Positions 22,065 through 64,000 of a stretch of 64,000 bases of DNA are shown here, in pieces. The DNA comes from a virus. Position 1 is the first letter of the stretch, and each line of letters begins with the position of its first letter. Under the pieces are notes generated by a model. That model was not told the DNA's origin. It saw nothing but the letters and a program-made list of their open reading frames with translations, and searched no databases. Location of the stretch: the IMG/VR virus record IMGVR_UViG_3300048033_000725, positions 1 to 64,000 of that record. The stretch is one strand, 5' to 3'. A program made the translations under genes and the position numbers.

Positions 22065-22937
22065 TTAATCAAATAGTTTATCAAATGTGGCGGGACCTGC
22101 AATACCATCTGCTACAAGACCGTTTTCACCTTGCCACTTTTTCAATGCTCTTTCAGTGCCTGGACCAAAGTCGCCGTCTGCACTAATACCCAACGCTTCT
22201 TGCATCAACTTGACGCCTTCACCCTTAGAACCTTTGCGTAGTACACCAATGTCATCAAGAATATCTTGAATGTCATCATCGGTCTCCGTTTTCAAAACAG
22301 TATCCATACCCAAAATGCGTAGTGCATTACTATAACGCTTCTGTCGGTCTTCTAGTCCAATCGAACCACCATTGATTTTCTTGGTCATGCGCTTAACATC
22401 GTCTGTGTCTGCAATGGCGTTTAGTTTGTTTGTGTCCCAAAACCAACATGCACTTTCGATAGCGCCAGCAGGTGTTGCAACATATTCTGCCGCTTCTTCT
22501 GCCGTCATACCGATGCTTTTACCAAAGCGGGTGTAGTTCTCACGCCCTGTAAGTTGCTTTAGACCACGACCACGGAAACGCCAGCCATCACCTTCTTGTG
22601 TGTTGCCCATCTTGTACTTACGGAATTCATCCATGTAAACATAGTTAGCAATCATTTCGGGTTTGCGGTGATACTCATCTGCATCACGCTTTGGTGCTGG
22701 ACCAAAGTAACGTCCAAACACTGCACGAAGAGATTTTGCGCTATAGTTAAGATTTTCTTCTAGTCGTTTGAATCCACCACTTTCGTGGGCGCACTGACTT
22801 AGAAAGTGTGCTACACGGCGTTCAGTTGTAATGCCGTATTTTGGTAGCAGTTCGCATAGAGCATCATACCAGTTGTCTGGGTTATCTGAAATAATCTCCC
22901 CAAGATGCTCTTTAGTAAATTCGAATTGAAAACTCAT
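22065..22937 (-). CDS. Endolysin: GH19 chitinase/lysozyme with C-terminal peptidoglycan-binding domain
   Basis: 290 aa. The family-19 core has FLSQCAHESGGFKRLEENLNYSA, giving the two catalytic glutamates (E52 and about E60), then WRFRGRGLKQLTGRENY and SACWFWDTNKLN. Residues 230-290 form a PG_binding_1 domain (GEGVKLMQEALG, DGDFGPGTERALKKWQ, GIAGPATFDKLFD). It cleaves cell-wall glycan to release progeny. No signal peptide, so it needs a holin. AAGGTGAG precedes the ATG. The gene follows the Hsp20 terminator; I see no promoter of its own immediately upstream. Confidence 0.92.
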   Translation of the reverse strand: MSFQFEFTKEHLGEIISDNPDNWYDALCELLPKYGITTERRVAHFLSQCAHESGGFKRLEENLNYSAKSLRAVFGRYFGPAPKRDADEYHRKPEMIANYVYMDEFRKYKMGNTQEGDGWRFRGRGLKQLTGRENYTRFGKSIGMTAEEAAEYVATPAGAIESACWFWDTNKLNAIADTDDVKRMTKKINGGSIGLEDRQKRYSNALRILGMDTVLKTETDDDIQDILDDIGVLRKGSKGEGVKLMQEALGISADGDFGPGTERALKKWQGENGLVADGIAGPATFDKLFD

Positions 22938-54368: not shown

Positions 54369-57300
54369 TTAGGCTTGACTTTCTGACCAGGATAGTTTAC
54401 CAGTTACGAAGAATGGGTTACTACCTGAAATGTCGGATGTTGACTGTGGCTGAACTGCAAGAGTTAGCAAGTCAGGTCCGTTCGGGAAGATACCATCACC
54501 ACCTAGAATTGAGTTACCAAGTTCAAGTAGTTCTTCAAGTGCAATGTCAAGTGAACCAGCAGAACCTTTTACAGAGTAAATGGTCGTACCGCCATCTAGG
54601 GTATCACCGTGGTCGTGGTCAATAATCTGTGACAACGATGGTGATTCCGCACCTTGGAAATCTGCTTTCGATGGAATCGCATTAAGGATTAGGAAAATCT
54701 CAACGTCTTTCGAAGTTGTGATACCTGCTTGACGCAATCTCAACTGCATTCTGTTAATGATTTCACGCTCACCAACTGCACCAGTCAAAGCAGAATCCAC
54801 TGAAGGTGAAAGTCTGAGAGACACAAGCGGAATTGGTTGGTCAAGTTCAATTGGTGTAACTTCACCGTTAAGCAGTGTCGAAGCACTCGCAATGTTTGCA
54901 GTACCTGGTTCTGTGTTTGTCGCAGGGTAAGATGTAAACACTTTAGAAGTTGCACCGTCAAGTTTAACTTGTGTTACATATGTACCTTCAGGCAAGATTG
55001 TCGAACCACTAACTGTAATCTGAGAACCTACAACTGTTGCAGTAGCGTTTGCTTCTGTACATGGAATTCCATATACGAATACTCGGCTACCATTCAGTGT
55101 AATAACATCGAATGTTGATTCCGCATTTGAAGCAAAACTTCTGCTTGCGCCGTTGGTAAATGCGAACGGTTTAGAGTTACGAGAGAACAAGTACGCTTTA
55201 TCGTCATCAAATCTACCATCCATGATGATTGAAGTACCGAAGTGGAACAGTGTAGGCGCAGTAGTTGCGGCTGGACCGTTTTCAATCTCATAGCGCCCTG
55301 GAAGGTTACCAGAACGGAAGTAGGATTCGCCAAGTCTGTTGTTGTGAACAAACTCATGCATGTAGCGGATATGTCCTTCACGGTCTTTGAAACCGAAGCG
55401 AACTTTACCAGCACCGTACCAAGAGTAGTCAGCATAACACATATGCAACTTGGTTGTATCAAGTTTAAATCCTGATGGACCTTGACCATTAGCAGTATCA
55501 ATATTCCAGTCTCTTTGCGGTACTCTACGGTCAATTGTCTTAGTGACTTTAATGCCCTTAGAAGTAATACCACGATATGCAGGCTGTACAACCATTCTCA
55601 AGTCAGAAGATACTTCAACAATCTTGTAAGACTGTCCGCGGATAACTACTTTATCACCCTTGGTAACTTGAGTTGTGAATGATGTATCATTACCTTGAAT
55701 TACCTGAGAGTTTCTTGTTGCTGTAACAGAACCCGCCAACTGCAATGTAGATGAACGTACAACACATGCTAGTTCAGAACCATCGTACTCAAAGAAGAAT
55801 CCGTTTTGGTCATCAAACATACCTGCACGAACATAACTATCTTGCCAGCCATTTCTCACATATGTTGGGAATCCAGATGCTTTTGCTTCATCAGGAACCT
55901 CAGACATTTGGTATGAGAATGAGAATGGAGACGGAGTTTCACTCACCGCAAATGTACCATTGTATGGGTTATTTGACAGTGGTCCAGTTTCAGCACCTGC
56001 AATAGTAACAAGGTCACCAACTTTTAGGTTATGTTGTTCTTGCGTATTAACTGTTGCCGTATCTGTCTCAGACTTAATCAAAGACCTCAAAACACGAGGT
56101 GGGTTGAAGTTGATTGCCAGAGAGTTCTGAATGCCTTTACCAGACTGGTATCTGAAGTATTTACGAGATTGACGAACAATCTTACTATCAGGAGAAGTAC
56201 CTGCCGTAATATCGACACCACCATCAAATGATTTATGCAGTGAGTATCCATCAGGACGAAGCATAATCTGAGTAGTGAAGTAGTATGGTGATGCAACTGC
56301 AACTGTTTCTTCTGGTGCATCAAATACACGAAGTTTTTCGTCTGTTTGAATGTCACGAACAGTTAGTGCATAAACATAGTCATTACCTTTTACATAAATT
56401 TGGTCAAAACGCTTGAATGTAGTCAAGAATGATGTACCAGAACCTGTAATTTCAATGCTACCGGCTTCAAATGTAATCAGACCGGCACCAGTAATCGACT
56501 TAATCAAAGACCGTGCTTTGAGTGAGTGTGTACCAGTTTGTGCTGATAGACCTGTTTCGATATTATTAACAGCAGAATCCGCAGATACAGCAAGTTTGAT
56601 TGTATTCGTTCCTGTGCTAATCACGTTAAAGACATTATCTGTCTCATCAGTTAGCATAGAAGTTCCATCTGGTGTGTATGTAACAACTTCACCAGTAATC
56701 AAGTTATGCTCAAATCCTAGGTCAATTTCGCCAGTAAGTACATCAATGTCTGTGCTGTCGAATGTATATTCACGGGACGGGATTTTAAAGTCTGTTGCAA
56801 GAATAAACTCATTTGGATTTGGAGTTTCTTCAATGATTGCAAATACGCCATCATAAGCACCTCTAAGTGAATCCACAACAAATTCTTGTTCACCCACAAC
56901 ACCAGTGCTGTCAAGTATAACTGAACCAGTAGCACCTGTGACAATAAAGCGGATTTCCCACCAATTGGTCATACTACCAACTCTGCGGTTGATACGAGAT
57001 GTTGGGTCAAACTCTACGTTCACGCCAAGGCTACCACCACTATCAACAAGAAGTGCTGATACATCTTTTGTAGTCCAGTTCTGGTCATTTCTGAATGTAG
57101 TTGTATCGGCACCACCATTACGACCGATGAAATATTCAGTACCATCGCCAGTAAATGTAATCTTAACATATTCACGGGTTTCGTTGAAGTCACCACGATA
57201 CTGAACATCAATAATAGATGCTCCAGTTGGGGTAATTCCCAATGGTGTTTCAAAGTTGATAAACTCTGTAATTGTTGAGTTATTTGCTCGACCGACTGTT

Positions 57301-60300
57301 GCAGTTGTAGCAGATGCGGTTGTATCAACAACTTGAGAAAGTGATAGACGGGAATCGTTTACACGGTTCAAGTTATATGCAGTGTTGTTTACTGCACCAC
57401 CAATTGCGTTTGATACAATATGACTTTCGAAATAGATGAAGTTAGCATCTGCACCGCCAGTATACTTAGTGGAATCTGGAGCATTTACTGAGATAGCAAT
57501 GTCATCATCTGTAGTAGCACTTGCAGTCCAAGTAATTGTACGAATATCTGGGTCAGTAGCATCGTCAATTACCATGCTATATTCTGTAGTTGCTTCTGTC
57601 CAAGCACCACCAGAACCGTACCAGATAGTAGGTCTGTCGCCTGTAGCAACACTAGTCAATCCACTAATCGCAACTGAATATGCTTGACCCTCGTACATAC
57701 GCACTGTTGGGTTGACTTCATTCTCACCGATATTGCGACCATTAGCAGTATATGTGCCGTCAGATTCCAGAACAACTTCATACGCAACTGTAGCAGGTTC
57801 GTTGTTACCAGAAGACAAGTATGTTGCTTCAGACTGAGAGATAATTTTGTGGTTGTTCACATAAATTGTATTATACAGGTCGTTTTCTGTATTATACTGA
57901 ACACTGAAATTATCTGGGAATGCTGTGATATCATCAGTATTTGGAGCAACATTCAGAGTAATTCTGAATGTGTCTGGTGAAACAACAGCAAGTGTTGCGG
58001 CGAAGGAATCGGCTTCAATAGTCTGTTCAACACCTGCACTGTCAGCAAATTTAAATCTCTGACCAGCGGCATAATCTGTAGCATCAACTGTAATAGTTGC
58101 GTCTTGACCACCAGTAATTCCATGACCTACTTGATATACAGTATTTCTATCTGCATTAAGGTCTGCAACAAACATGTAGTATACGTCAGAATTATTTTCA
58201 GCAATACCTGTACGTGTGGAGTTACTTGTGAAGTATGAAAACTCATCAGACGCAGTACCCATGTCGAAGTTGTGTCTGAATGTACCATCACCCATTACAC
58301 TGTAACCGTTTACAGTTCCAGTTTGAGTTCTTAGTACATTACTTCTGACTGGTTTAATTACACCAAAACGAGAGTTTCTCATATCGGTACGGCTTGAGAA
58401 AGTATCTTTAGTCAAGTCACCAGCGCCACCCGAGGCTCCGTCAGATTTACCTTGGAAACACAAAACTCTTGAAGGATTAACGCCACCACGACCGAAGCCA
58501 CCTGGATATAGCGCCAAGTCAGCACCAGAATTTTCATATTGTGCGGCTTTGAACAATGCTCTCTGTGCTTCGGTAAGTTCTAGTCTAAAGTAGAATGAAC
58601 CGTAGCCACTGGAAATGTAAGTGCTGGATTCGTTCAGGTCATATCGAATTTGACCGGTACTACCGTAAGTGGACGAATTCTGTAGAAGAGCATCTGTAAC
58701 ATCTCGGCGACCGAAAAGTTCAGTATTAGATTCCGAATCAACACCATCGCCTTCGGGGTCAGTCGGTCCAGTACCAAATGTGATAGACGCATTACCAGAT
58801 GGGTCATATATTGTTACAGTGTTGAGTTCGTTGGATGCCTCAAGGTCTCCACCTGCTTCACCCATGTAATCCAACCAAACTTTTGCACCGCCAGCAATTA
58901 GGTCTTCAAGATAACCAGTCCAGCCACCAAATGCTTCTGACACATTCAGCCTTTGTTGGTTTTCGCCATTCATGTTGCCACGAAGATGGACTGAAGTAAC
59001 TTTATATTGGTTTGCAGTTACAGGAGATGCTGGACCACCGACACCCTCATCAGCGGTAGAGTAAGTAGTATTGTAGTAACTTGCGTCATTATATGGGGCA
59101 TTATATTCAGTATAGATTTGGTCATTTCGTGACCATGCTTTCCAAGCCTTATATACAAGACCAAGACGTGGAGAACCTTTATCTCCAGTAATTGCAGAAA
59201 GAGTTAGTTCACTACCAAGAGCGGCATTCGTATGAAGTTTGATTGTGTTGGCATCCACAACTTCTGCAAAGTAAACAGTACCATCATTCATTCCACCGTC
59301 TGAAGCACCTTTAAATGGTGAGTTGAACAGCAAAGCAGATTTGTTCGGAATGTCATGTGAAGGCCATGAAATAGTATTTGTGTCTGTATCGACCGAAGAA
59401 GTCTGTAAGTAAAGTGAATGTGTTGATTGGTGGTCCCATGTTACAACAGCATTCTGTCTTACGTTACCACGACCCGTATCTGACCCCGCAACAATATCAA
59501 AGTTCGTGATAAAGTTTGCGTCAGTATCAAGGTATGGACGACCATCAGGTGCAGTTGCTTGTGGGTCATTAATAATCAAAGACTTAGGTCCAATTGTGTT
59601 ACGAAGATATACTTTCGTACCAATTGCAAAACCGTGTGTCTCAGAAGTTACAACGTCAATCTTAGACGGAGAACCGCCATCTGTCTGTGCGCCATCAATG
59701 ACGGAAACTGGGAGAGGACTTCCTTCAAAGAATTTAGCAGGCACGATTGTAGTATAACCACCAGAAATGTCTCCAGTAGAAGATGCAGGAACATCCAATT
59801 CGAAGAAGAATGTGTTCTGACCATCAACACCCGAGATAGTAAAGAAACCCTCTGCTTGATAGTCATCAAGACCTTGAACAGAAACTGGGTTGCCAAGTTC
59901 AAGTGAGTGAGGAATTGAAGTTGTAACTTTAACCTGCTTAGAACCAGCAACTGCGTCAACAGCAATAATACCATCAATTGGTTTATCACCAGAAGAAGAG
60001 TATACTGTTGGAATGTTGTTTACTGATTGAAGTGTTTCCCACTTAGTTGACTGTAGACCATATTCAAAGTCAGTATCAATCAAGTTACCTGGGTTAGATA
60101 CACGAATTTTACCAACAGCATCAAGCAAATCTTCAGCAACAGTCATAACTTCGGAATCTTTGTTTACAAAGACCTGAATAGTATCACCACCGTTAATATC
60201 GTCATCGCTTGCGGTATCATAATCGAGGTTGATTGTTGTCATTTCAGTTAATTCACTGAATGACCAAGAACCCTTATAGTTTTGTGAATTGAATTGGTAT

Positions 60301-60428
60301 AGTGTTTTCGCCGCAGTTACATCAGTAATGAGAAGAACTTTCTCCTTACTGTGGTGCCCTTTGAACGACACTGTACCAGCATCTTTGTCAAACGTGACAT
60401 ATGCCGATGGAATTAAATGTCTTGCCAT
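54369..60428 (-). CDS. Giant virion structural protein (fibre/whisker region)
   Basis: 2019 aa, in the place where T4 has short fibre and whisker genes upstream of gene 13. It is beta-rich and repetitive: units of the form HxLxxGxxVxIxG...GxFxIxxV...FxFxL recur near residues 175-230, 265-285, 1255-1310 and 1480-1540, as in host-contact proteins. A domain near 1075-1180 (DVQYRGDFNETREYVKITF, TNWWEIRFIV) is also present in the 991-aa protein at 61011. The C-terminal 300 residues (RLRQAGITTSKDVEIFLILN, GDTLDGGTTIYSVKGSAGSL) look globular. Late promoter 60475-60482. Confidence 0.85.
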   Translation of the reverse strand: MARHLIPSAYVTFDKDAGTVSFKGHHSKEKVLLITDVTAAKTLYQFNSQNYKGSWSFSELTEMTTINLDYDTASDDDINGGDTIQVFVNKDSEVMTVAEDLLDAVGKIRVSNPGNLIDTDFEYGLQSTKWETLQSVNNIPTVYSSSGDKPIDGIIAVDAVAGSKQVKVTTSIPHSLELGNPVSVQGLDDYQAEGFFTISGVDGQNTFFFELDVPASSTGDISGGYTTIVPAKFFEGSPLPVSVIDGAQTDGGSPSKIDVVTSETHGFAIGTKVYLRNTIGPKSLIINDPQATAPDGRPYLDTDANFITNFDIVAGSDTGRGNVRQNAVVTWDHQSTHSLYLQTSSVDTDTNTISWPSHDIPNKSALLFNSPFKGASDGGMNDGTVYFAEVVDANTIKLHTNAALGSELTLSAITGDKGSPRLGLVYKAWKAWSRNDQIYTEYNAPYNDASYYNTTYSTADEGVGGPASPVTANQYKVTSVHLRGNMNGENQQRLNVSEAFGGWTGYLEDLIAGGAKVWLDYMGEAGGDLEASNELNTVTIYDPSGNASITFGTGPTDPEGDGVDSESNTELFGRRDVTDALLQNSSTYGSTGQIRYDLNESSTYISSGYGSFYFRLELTEAQRALFKAAQYENSGADLALYPGGFGRGGVNPSRVLCFQGKSDGASGGAGDLTKDTFSSRTDMRNSRFGVIKPVRSNVLRTQTGTVNGYSVMGDGTFRHNFDMGTASDEFSYFTSNSTRTGIAENNSDVYYMFVADLNADRNTVYQVGHGITGGQDATITVDATDYAAGQRFKFADSAGVEQTIEADSFAATLAVVSPDTFRITLNVAPNTDDITAFPDNFSVQYNTENDLYNTIYVNNHKIISQSEATYLSSGNNEPATVAYEVVLESDGTYTANGRNIGENEVNPTVRMYEGQAYSVAISGLTSVATGDRPTIWYGSGGAWTEATTEYSMVIDDATDPDIRTITWTASATTDDDIAISVNAPDSTKYTGGADANFIYFESHIVSNAIGGAVNNTAYNLNRVNDSRLSLSQVVDTTASATTATVGRANNSTITEFINFETPLGITPTGASIIDVQYRGDFNETREYVKITFTGDGTEYFIGRNGGADTTTFRNDQNWTTKDVSALLVDSGGSLGVNVEFDPTSRINRRVGSMTNWWEIRFIVTGATGSVILDSTGVVGEQEFVVDSLRGAYDGVFAIIEETPNPNEFILATDFKIPSREYTFDSTDIDVLTGEIDLGFEHNLITGEVVTYTPDGTSMLTDETDNVFNVISTGTNTIKLAVSADSAVNNIETGLSAQTGTHSLKARSLIKSITGAGLITFEAGSIEITGSGTSFLTTFKRFDQIYVKGNDYVYALTVRDIQTDEKLRVFDAPEETVAVASPYYFTTQIMLRPDGYSLHKSFDGGVDITAGTSPDSKIVRQSRKYFRYQSGKGIQNSLAINFNPPRVLRSLIKSETDTATVNTQEQHNLKVGDLVTIAGAETGPLSNNPYNGTFAVSETPSPFSFSYQMSEVPDEAKASGFPTYVRNGWQDSYVRAGMFDDQNGFFFEYDGSELACVVRSSTLQLAGSVTATRNSQVIQGNDTSFTTQVTKGDKVVIRGQSYKIVEVSSDLRMVVQPAYRGITSKGIKVTKTIDRRVPQRDWNIDTANGQGPSGFKLDTTKLHMCYADYSWYGAGKVRFGFKDREGHIRYMHEFVHNNRLGESYFRSGNLPGRYEIENGPAATTAPTLFHFGTSIIMDGRFDDDKAYLFSRNSKPFAFTNGASRSFASNAESTFDVITLNGSRVFVYGIPCTEANATATVVGSQITVSGSTILPEGTYVTQVKLDGATSKVFTSYPATNTEPGTANIASASTLLNGEVTPIELDQPIPLVSLRLSPSVDSALTGAVGEREIINRMQLRLRQAGITTSKDVEIFLILNAIPSKADFQGAESPSLSQIIDHDHGDTLDGGTTIYSVKGSAGSLDIALEELLELGNSILGGDGIFPNGPDLLTLAVQPQSTSDISGSNPFFVTGKLSWSESQA

Positions 60429-60750: not shown

Positions 60751-61011
60751 TTATTTATTTATAAGTTGAGTGAGTAAAGATTTGATATCTTTTATGTCAT
60801 CTTCCAAACTATTTAGTCTTTTCGTATTCGCTGCCTGTTCTTCACGAAGTCTTTTCTTTTCCAAGTATTCGTTGATTTCTTGGTCACTTAGGGACACTAA
60901 TACAGCCTTTGAGTATGGGTCACGAACATAGTTGGGATTATCCTGAACCCCCAAGAAAACATCGTCTTCTTGGGGTTTGATTTCAGTTGGCATCAAATTT
61001 TTATCTGGCAT
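60751..61011 (-). CDS. Small virion-region protein with C-terminal coiled coil
   Basis: 86 aa. PDKNLMPTEIKPQEDD, then DNPNYVRDPYSKAVLVSL, a conserved-looking core, then a heptad coil (TKRLNSLEDDIKDIKSLLTQL). Its ATG shares a base with the 991-aa gene's stop codon, so translation is coupled. Its last codons are the late promoter of the next gene. The function is unknown; possibly an adaptor or fibre chaperone. Confidence 0.72.
   Translation of the reverse strand: MPDKNLMPTEIKPQEDDVFLGVQDNPNYVRDPYSKAVLVSLSDQEINEYLEKKRLREEQAANTKRLNSLEDDIKDIKSLLTQLINK
60756..60763 (-). promoter_or_regulatory. T4-type late promoter
   Basis: TATAAATA on the minus strand, overlapping the last codons of the 60751-61011 gene and 23 bases before the next start. 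Confidence 0.8.
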
Positions 61012-64000
61012 TAAGTGCTACCTGTTAAAATTCTCAAATCTTGTGCATAAGGTACTCTTGCTTTACTATCCGTAAACAAACATACTTTTACTGCAAATGT
61101 TACAAAGTTACCAAATTCAACACCGTTAGCATTTGTGTATGATACAGTCCCGCCCGCTGGCTTCCATTCATAGTCAAAGGTATCACCTTCATATTCTGAG
61201 AATGTCTGCTTTTGTTGTAGGTCCATACGAACATATGGTGTATCATCAAAATCACTGTCATCACCAGCAGAGATAATTTTATAGTAAACTTCAATCTCTG
61301 AACCACGTGGGCGATAGCAACGCATTCTGACATTAATATTGTCGGATGCAACTCTATCTTCAGGAATTGTTACTTGTTTTGTAACATATCTTGCAAGAGC
61401 ATTACCATCAACTGCACTTGTTTCGCCTGAAACAACAAATATTGGTGCCACTTGTGCGCCCGTTGCCGCAATTGTCAGTGTAGGTGTTTCGTAGTAACCG
61501 ACACCACCATTCGTTACACGAATACCGATGAAGTCTCCACTATTATATAGTCCATCAAATTCTGTACCATCTGAGATAACACCTTCTGCCTGGAAGCCAC
61601 TACCTACGCCAGTCATAATTATGCCGCCATTGTCAGTAGTCGGAACGTTTGCTGGGTCATAACCAGTACCTACTTTCTGGAGTATAATTTCTTCTGAAGA
61701 AATATCACCATCATTAATAAGTTGGTCAATCAACAACGCTCTTGCAGGTTCAATATCAATTGCAGGTGATACATCAACATTGGTAGAAGTTAGTGTGTAC
61801 TTGAAGTAGAATGTTCCTGCCTCAGGTCCTGCACCCATTTCTCTATTTGCAAATACGTTCTCATCTGGAATGTATTCTTTCCAATCAGCATCAATCGCCT
61901 GTTCTGGTTCAAGTTGCTCATCTTCGGCATTTACCAAAGTTGTACCTTTATAGTAGAACTTAATATCTGTCGCATCACTTGGGTCAATAGTCTCAACAAT
62001 TGATTTAAACACTTGCCAAGGATACATATCCTCAGTTTCGTATTGACCAAGAATTGCTTCACCAACAACAGAAGTATCAAAGTTTGCTTTGTACAGTCTG
62101 AACATCAAATCCTGGGTTTGCTCTGCGGTCCATGTTGAAGCGTTTTGTGACTTAAACAAAGAACCAGCATATGGCTGTTCTGTAATTCTATTAGAAGAAC
62201 CTAAGATTTCAGCCCCCATTTCAGTGATATATGTCTCATAATTGTTAGAGTTCGACAAAAGAACAACTGCATATTCACCAGGCTCCAAGTAGACTGGAGA
62301 TGGGAATGCAACTTCTGTTGGTGCAGAGAGGACACTTTCAGCATCGAAAGGATTCTCTGGCAGAACAACATCAGCAGGCGGAATATCTACCTTACCGAAC
62401 GGGACAATCAATGCACTGTCTGGGTAACCATTGTTTGTTGGGCGAATTTGAACAGATACAGGAATTGCTTCATCTTTAGTTTTAAAGAACAAGTCAATCT
62501 TTGTAATGTAAACACCATTTGGGTGTTTCTGTGCATCGACCAAGATTGTTTCTGCAACTGGGTCATACCAACCAACAACTCTGCTTGAACGGCGGCGAGA
62601 AGTAATTCTACTTGTTGCCGAACGTACAGTTCTTGTTTGCGTAACAGTCTCACGAATAAGCGCAGGTACACGGGTTGTAATCGTAGTATTCTGCATAATT
62701 TTCTTCTGACCTGTTGCACGATAAGTTGCATCAGCCGAAGTTGTACAATCTCTTGGGTCAGCCTTATTTGGGTCATCAAGAATTCGGAATACACGTTCAC
62801 CAGTTTTGAAGCGCAATCCATCTTCACCCTCATTAGGCAACTCAAACACACCAGCAAGGCGACCAGAACCGTCAGTCTTCAACGCATCACCAGGAGCCGC
62901 TCTTGTCAAACCAGACAAACGGGCAGTTGGTGGTCTACGAGTGATTGTCGCACCATTAGCGTCTTGCACAGAGGATACTGTTCCTACAATTTCCAAAGTC
63001 CTAGAGTTGTCAGCAACAATCTGGTCAATCTCTGCTTGAGAACCTGGGTTTTGTTCAGTAATGATATCATCAACTGTACGCTTAATGTCATATGTCGCTT
63101 CAAATTGGAATTTGATTTCATAATAATTTGTCATTGGTCCAGGACCATAGTTCACACGACCAGTCGGGTTAATCCAAATACGGAGATACTGCTTACCTTT
63201 TCTAGTATATACGCCAGCAAGAACATTACGCCCATTTGGATATGTAGCAGTCCAGTTAGTATCTGTTTGGAAAACAGAACCCGCACGAACACCAGAGAAG
63301 CGACCTGCCAAGAAGCGGTTTGTGCTAAAGCGCCACCACCAGCGGCGTCTCCACCAACGTCTAAACCAACGTCTGCGTACATTCGGGAATCTAACAACAA
63401 TGTATTCGCTAGAAGCATTCAGGTCTCCACGAACTTGAATACCAGTTACCTTGAGTGTTTTCGCACTAATATCATTACCATTTTCATCAGGACCCAAAAT
63501 GTCTGTAATATTATACGTCTTAATGATACGTCTTCTATGTCTACGACCAACGGCAGGAGACCATTTACCTGATACTGTTGCAGACTGAATAACAGTACGT
63601 TTAACAATACGAGTTGAGAATGTATCTTCTGAAGTTAGTCCTTCAACAACGAGTTTACCTGTCGAACCATCGTGACCAGATACGATATTACCACGACCCA
63701 AAGTTGTAGATGGGTCATCAACATCGTATACTAAGACTTCTTCTTTTTCTAAGAAACGTCTTTCCTGTGGAAGCGCATCATTAGGGAATGTCAACTGAGT
63801 ACCAACAATGTCAAGTGTATTTGCTGGCTTACAATATGCGGCAACAGATGTGTTGTCGAACCAAGGGAAAACTGTAGTGTTTGGCTTCATGCCTGCCACT
63901 GTAAAGAATACTTCTTTTGCTCTCATCCATGGGATGATAGTCAAGTCAACAACCTTGTTACCCAAAGAACGTTTAACAGTCTTCATACCCCAACGTGTAC
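61011..64000 (-). CDS. Large virion structural protein, 5' end outside window
   Basis: At least 995 codons. The first ATG in view is at 63986, but the frame stays open to the window edge (T-R-W-G precedes it) and no ribosome site fits that ATG, so the true start is probably upstream. It begins with VVDLTIIPWMRAKEVFFTVAGMKPN, a domain I recall in large fibre or baseplate proteins of marine T4-like phages, and ends FAVKVCLFTDSKARVPYAQDLR. Residues 204-220 (from ATG 63986) form an extraordinary Arg/Trp-rich run. A domain around 180-310 is shared with the 2019-aa protein. Confidence 0.85.
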   Translation of the reverse strand, partial: TRWGMKTVKRSLGNKVVDLTIIPWMRAKEVFFTVAGMKPNTTVFPWFDNTSVAAYCKPANTLDIVGTQLTFPNDALPQERRFLEKEEVLVYDVDDPSTTLGRGNIVSGHDGSTGKLVVEGLTSEDTFSTRIVKRTVIQSATVSGKWSPAVGRRHRRRIIKTYNITDILGPDENGNDISAKTLKVTGIQVRGDLNASSEYIVVRFPNVRRRWFRRWWRRRWWWRFSTNRFLAGRFSGVRAGSVFQTDTNWTATYPNGRNVLAGVYTRKGKQYLRIWINPTGRVNYGPGPMTNYYEIKFQFEATYDIKRTVDDIITEQNPGSQAEIDQIVADNSRTLEIVGTVSSVQDANGATITRRPPTARLSGLTRAAPGDALKTDGSGRLAGVFELPNEGEDGLRFKTGERVFRILDDPNKADPRDCTTSADATYRATGQKKIMQNTTITTRVPALIRETVTQTRTVRSATSRITSRRRSSRVVGWYDPVAETILVDAQKHPNGVYITKIDLFFKTKDEAIPVSVQIRPTNNGYPDSALIVPFGKVDIPPADVVLPENPFDAESVLSAPTEVAFPSPVYLEPGEYAVVLLSNSNNYETYITEMGAEILGSSNRITEQPYAGSLFKSQNASTWTAEQTQDLMFRLYKANFDTSVVGEAILGQYETEDMYPWQVFKSIVETIDPSDATDIKFYYKGTTLVNAEDEQLEPEQAIDADWKEYIPDENVFANREMGAGPEAGTFYFKYTLTSTNVDVSPAIDIEPARALLIDQLINDGDISSEEIILQKVGTGYDPANVPTTDNGGIIMTGVGSGFQAEGVISDGTEFDGLYNSGDFIGIRVTNGGVGYYETPTLTIAATGAQVAPIFVVSGETSAVDGNALARYVTKQVTIPEDRVASDNINVRMRCYRPRGSEIEVYYKIISAGDDSDFDDTPYVRMDLQQKQTFSEYEGDTFDYEWKPAGGTVSYTNANGVEFGNFVTFAVKVCLFTDSKARVPYAQDLRILTGST

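Follow-up and report, generated by a model that had tools for sequence, protein, structure and literature searches.

An Arg/Trp-rich tract, probably on a beta-hairpin, in a module inserted into the VrlC-type baseplate protein of a T4-like phage

A protein assigned by homology to the VrlC/DUF4815-type baseplate proteins of T4-like phages carries a 17-residue tract made almost entirely of arginine and tryptophan. The tract is kept in related contigs and lies within a jelly-roll-like module that is itself part of an insertion of about 310 residues; in an AlphaFold2 model it falls on a long beta-hairpin. We tentatively read it as a cationic and aromatic finger that may engage the host surface at adsorption. 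The window, as used below, is the whole stretch of DNA analysed, 64,000 nucleotides corresponding to positions 1 to 64,000 of IMG/VR record IMGVR_UViG_3300048033_000725. The features considered are the following.

61011..64000, minus strand: gene for the VrlC/DUF4815-type baseplate protein, C-terminal part, beginning near residue 1313 of 2308 (open frame, DUF4815, phrog_358)
62868..63806, minus strand: insertion of about 310 residues (residues about 1378–1690), from the alignment, limits approximate
63081..63572, minus strand: jelly-roll-like module that contains the tract, modelled over 164 residues and also found in the neighbouring gene
63306..63401, minus strand: long beta-hairpin, predicted from the model
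63327–63377, minus strand: Arg/Trp tract RRRWFRRWWRRRWWWRF, residues 1521–1537 of 2308 (model residues 66–82)
56868..57314, minus strand: paralogous module without the tract, in the gene for a 2019-residue virion protein (54369–60428), from tblastn and hhalign

The tract and the protein that carries it

The initial annotation had pointed to a 17-residue Arg/Trp run in a coding frame of a virion protein. The run was found exactly at 63327–63377 on the minus strand, where 15 of the 17 residues are R or W, as an internal part of a single uninterrupted open frame and not as a free short peptide. Its composition, described there as extraordinary, proved to be so: given the composition of the protein itself (R 5.8%, W 1.2%), about 1e-12 stretches this rich would be expected; no 17-residue stretch exceeded 8/17 R/W when the protein was shuffled 2000 times; and the best stretch in the other open frames of the window (at least 200 codons) reached 6/17. 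Outside the window, the R/W pattern was matched inside an open frame of at least 150 codons in seven of at least 120 loci, and similar runs, among the matches listed, lay mostly in short, probably non-coding frames; our guess is that these represent off-frame reading of Gly-rich genes.

The same annotation held this composition to be typical of membrane-active peptides, a claim that stands in part. The tract is close in composition to designed Arg/Trp cell-penetrating and antimicrobial peptides, including the designed cell-penetrating peptide (R/W)9, RRWWRRWRR (PMC4134252), with which it also nearly shares the local order (RRWWRR...). These peptides are short and free, whereas the tract lies inside a virion protein of 2308 residues. 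The hydrophobic-moment test of the linear tract gave no peak at 100 degrees or at 160–180 degrees (best angle 74–85 degrees), and a linear amphipathic helix or strand was rejected.

The open frame comprises 991 codons within the window and 2308 codons in the 69,036-base parent record, where the gene runs beyond the window to position 67937. The full 2308-residue protein contains DUF4815 (PF16075; E 2.8e-57, 194.8 bits, cut-off 30), and its within-window part matches phrog_358 (E 5.1e-132). Homologues are present in 1514 phage records, under names that include VrlC and structural protein, and the conserved C-terminal block is common to the annotated VrlC of P-SSM4, HTVC008M and Mosig. Directly upstream lies a gene for a baseplate wedge subunit (phrog_438, E 7e-88), and the window also encodes a major head protein (phrog_138), a portal (phrog_213), sheath, terminase and DNA polymerase; cyanophage terminases are at best about 57% identical to its large terminase. 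According to one study, VrlC appears to stand in for T4 gp7 and is counted among the components of two-layered baseplates (PMC7029224); another likewise ties it to double-layered baseplates (PMC6630229). DUF4815 and phrog_358, the wedge neighbour and this published placement make it a baseplate protein rather than a fibre, and the term ‘fibre-like’, first applied to it, should be dropped.

Some other features of the phage were recorded. A second Arg-rich stretch of the same protein, GRRHRRR (63528–63548), is largely conserved in eight relatives, and a third, NRRTRNRRR (as read in contig L002), lies past the end of the window and is weaker in some relatives. In distant VrlC homologues (open frames of L012, L010 and L009) the linker that leads into the DPLAQ block contains long poly-proline runs; in the phage carrying the tract this linker is Arg/Thr-rich. 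Positions 22065–22937 probably encode an endolysin, with domains of the glycoside hydrolase 19 and peptidoglycan-binding types.

Conservation of the tract among relatives

Relatives were collected from IMG/VR by pattern-based scans that were not exhaustive. The first scan gave 13 loci, among them five contigs that are 76–90% identical to the window protein and in which the tract is identical or nearly so; two loci, L006 and L007, are identical across the tract stretch. A scan with the paralogous module added one more distant contig and a further scan two others. In these three the domain is 61–65% identical to that of the window, and the tract reads PR(T/V)WRGRLWRWRRWWRW (variants PRTWRGRLWRWRRWWRW or PRVWRGRLWRWRRWWRW), with unchanged length and 8/17 letters as in the window. 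In all eight IMG/VR relatives whose contigs extend into this part of the gene, the tract is in frame and free of indels, so the proposed refutation, a local frameshift in relatives, failed.

Each of the five distinct tracts contains 7–9 Arg, 5–7 Trp and no D, E or K, and six positions are invariant in all of them (W69, R72, W74, R75, R77 and W80, in model numbering). Of the 10 pairs formed by five of the closer sequences, 9 show synonymous changes within the tract. By this comparison of sequences, the tract is really present and is kept by evolution. Since the distant tracts have been rewritten and are still Arg/Trp tracts of equal length, its length and composition are more constant than its exact letters. 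Two candidate explanations were rejected: a frameshift or misread frame, because the frame is kept in eight related contigs, and an overlapping gene, because the +1 and +2 frames contain stops or differ in their letters among relatives.

The inserted module and its predicted structure

The protein shares with VrlC of other T4-like phages (Prochlorococcus phage P-SSM4, Pelagibacter phages HTVC008M and Mosig, and Rhizobium phages) DUF4815 and PHROG 358, the C-terminal block (DPxAxxFxVD ... GSLFKSQNASTW) and the adjacent baseplate wedge gene, and differs from them in its insertion of about 310 residues bearing the Arg/Trp module. When ten non-carrier VrlC homologues were aligned, nine had only a short segment at the insertion site, and the tenth (L156) had another, longer insert. 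Scanning with the C-terminal block gave at least 600 stretches from at least 590 relatives, of which 80 were kept and which, with the earlier loci, made up 101 VrlC open frames. The module profile matched 12 of these frames and, at E 0.1, none of the remaining 89. The 12 belong to the window and to the five contigs of the first scan, several loci representing one contig twice; the three distant contigs were fetched later. Five non-carrier contigs searched over their whole length gave no match to the module, and no VrlC module lacking the tract was found.

In databases, the module matched no Pfam family, and its best PHROG was a weak one (phrog_12842, E 0.022). It had no match at E 0.1 in 50,697 phage records and no relative in genome_contigs, and a PDB sequence search returned nothing meaningful (best E 0.15 and E 0.066). 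A relative does exist in the same phage. The neighbouring 2019-residue virion protein contains a paralogous module (tblastn E about 1e-7 among the loci retrieved; hhalign probability 96, E 4.3e-9) that is common to both proteins at the profile level, with an RGDxN...EY core, and has a short turn where the VrlC module has the tract: in all eight paralogue rows aligned, a gap stands opposite the tract, at the turn of the predicted hairpin. In one distant contig, the neighbouring large virion protein has two copies of the module (L246:5912–6361 and L246:7469–7861), which indicates that the module is reused. As to how the tract arose, we considered an inverted poly-proline run; poly-proline runs are present in other VrlC proteins, and the paralogous modules have only a short turn at the site.

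A first model, built from a shallow alignment of five close rows, was unusable (pLDDT 44). A second AlphaFold2 run, with eight tract-bearing and eight paralogue rows, gave a model with pLDDT 79.7 and pTM 0.74, its four other models averaging pLDDT 55.6–67.7. DSSP assigns strands to residues 58–72 and 75–89 of this model, with a turn at 73–74 and a pLDDT of 63–75 over the block. Modelling of the domain, suggested in the initial annotation as a check, thus places the tract on a long predicted hairpin of 15+15 residues whose turn the tract contains, and the tract is probably its distal half or tip, protruding from the module. In the register of the model, W69 and W80 lie on one face and R72, R75 and R77 on the other, with W74 at the tip. 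Aromatic residues occupy 4–5 of the seven positions of face A and 1–2 of the eight of face B (column shuffles, p 0.04), and the Arg residues are split between the faces with p 0.10, both values depending on the register taken from this model; the two-face pattern of aromatics and Arg on the modelled hairpin is weak.

A Foldseek search of the PDB gave no match at E 0.001 (best E 0.05), and a fold comparison, covering the families present in its fold lists, gave generic beta-sandwich or jelly-roll-like matches with a best Z of 6.5, under the caution line of 8 for that tool. One unnamed viral model in BFVD, A0A516LX26_2, matched the module with E 9.2e-4, probability 1.00 and TM 0.64.

Possible roles of the hairpin

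The reading that we favour, while granting it somewhat less than even chances, takes the hairpin for an exposed finger, both cationic and aromatic, that would engage the surface of the outer membrane, and specifically lipopolysaccharide (LPS), at adsorption. The jelly-roll-like module and its hairpin would occupy a loop of VrlC, presumably in several copies per baseplate, with Arg and Trp facing outward. At adsorption the finger would meet the anionic outer-membrane surface, Arg contacting LPS phosphates or acidic sugars and Trp the lipid/sugar interface, and this contact may help the baseplate to dock ahead of contraction. Given a T4-like baseplate, the contacted surface is most likely the outer membrane of the host, and we infer the presence of LPS from the T4-like type. 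Length and chemistry are kept while the letters change, which fits contact with a chemically defined surface better than it fits an exact interface between proteins. The short turn of the paralogue at the tract position and the 15+15-residue hairpin in the model support a finger, as do the baseplate family and its wedge neighbour and the (R/W)9-like composition, and the pLDDT of the hairpin and the weak face split count against it.

Trp-rich protein surfaces are usually buried, and a Trp-rich finger left exposed at all times would be sticky, a point in favour of burial. A serious rival reading, if a somewhat less probable one, is that the role is structural: by cation-pi packing on an adjacent subunit or on the neighbouring virion protein, the Arg and Trp side chains of the hairpin would staple the baseplate together without disulfides. 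The six invariant positions and the reuse of the module family in the neighbouring virion protein agree with this. Between clades, however, the tract changes faster (8/17 identical) than the domain (65%) with its composition kept, unlike a precise interface. Returning to the exposed finger, a stronger version in which, ahead of tail contraction, it would grasp lipid A and perturb the outer membrane beneath the baseplate, as an antimicrobial-peptide-like hairpin of uncultured T4-like phages, seems to us doubtful, with perhaps one chance in a few.

Carbohydrate binding, in which Trp of the beta-sandwich-like module would stack on host surface sugars and Arg would read acidic groups, is less probable still. 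The fold modelled for the module is compatible with it, and a study of two Bacillus phages describes lectin-like and carbohydrate-binding folds in tail-fibre/VrlC proteins (PMC11406892). The fold searches of the PDB gave no significant match, though, which speaks against this role. So does the density of the tract, binding sites being typically far sparser in Arg and Trp. Binding of phage DNA by an Arg-rich finger during ejection or assembly is very unlikely: acidic residues are absent from all five tracts, which speaks for it, but a wedge-type baseplate protein lies outside the DNA path, and DNA binding needs no excess of Trp. Least credible of all, to the point of being nearly dismissed, is an unselected tract, arising by chance from low-complexity DNA, through a frameshift or from a gene that overlaps in a different frame. 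Local G+C is 61% against 40% across the window, and the comparable runs listed lie mostly in short frames, but frame and length are kept in the eight contigs, the changes include synonymous ones, and the other frames are broken or differ.

The protein family is already known; the inserted module with its Arg/Trp hairpin is without a precedent that we could find, as the open-access literature searched described neither a tract of this kind in a virion protein of a phage nor a module with an Arg/Trp hairpin. The way in which the baseplate of a contractile phage takes hold of the outer membrane has been worked out in few cases, and a conserved, compositionally extreme hairpin is a concrete candidate for a lipid- or LPS-engaging baseplate part that is open to testing. 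Were the hairpin structural instead, it would represent an unusual way of stapling a virion; as an exposed finger, it may be a natural counterpart to the designed Arg/Trp membrane-active peptides.
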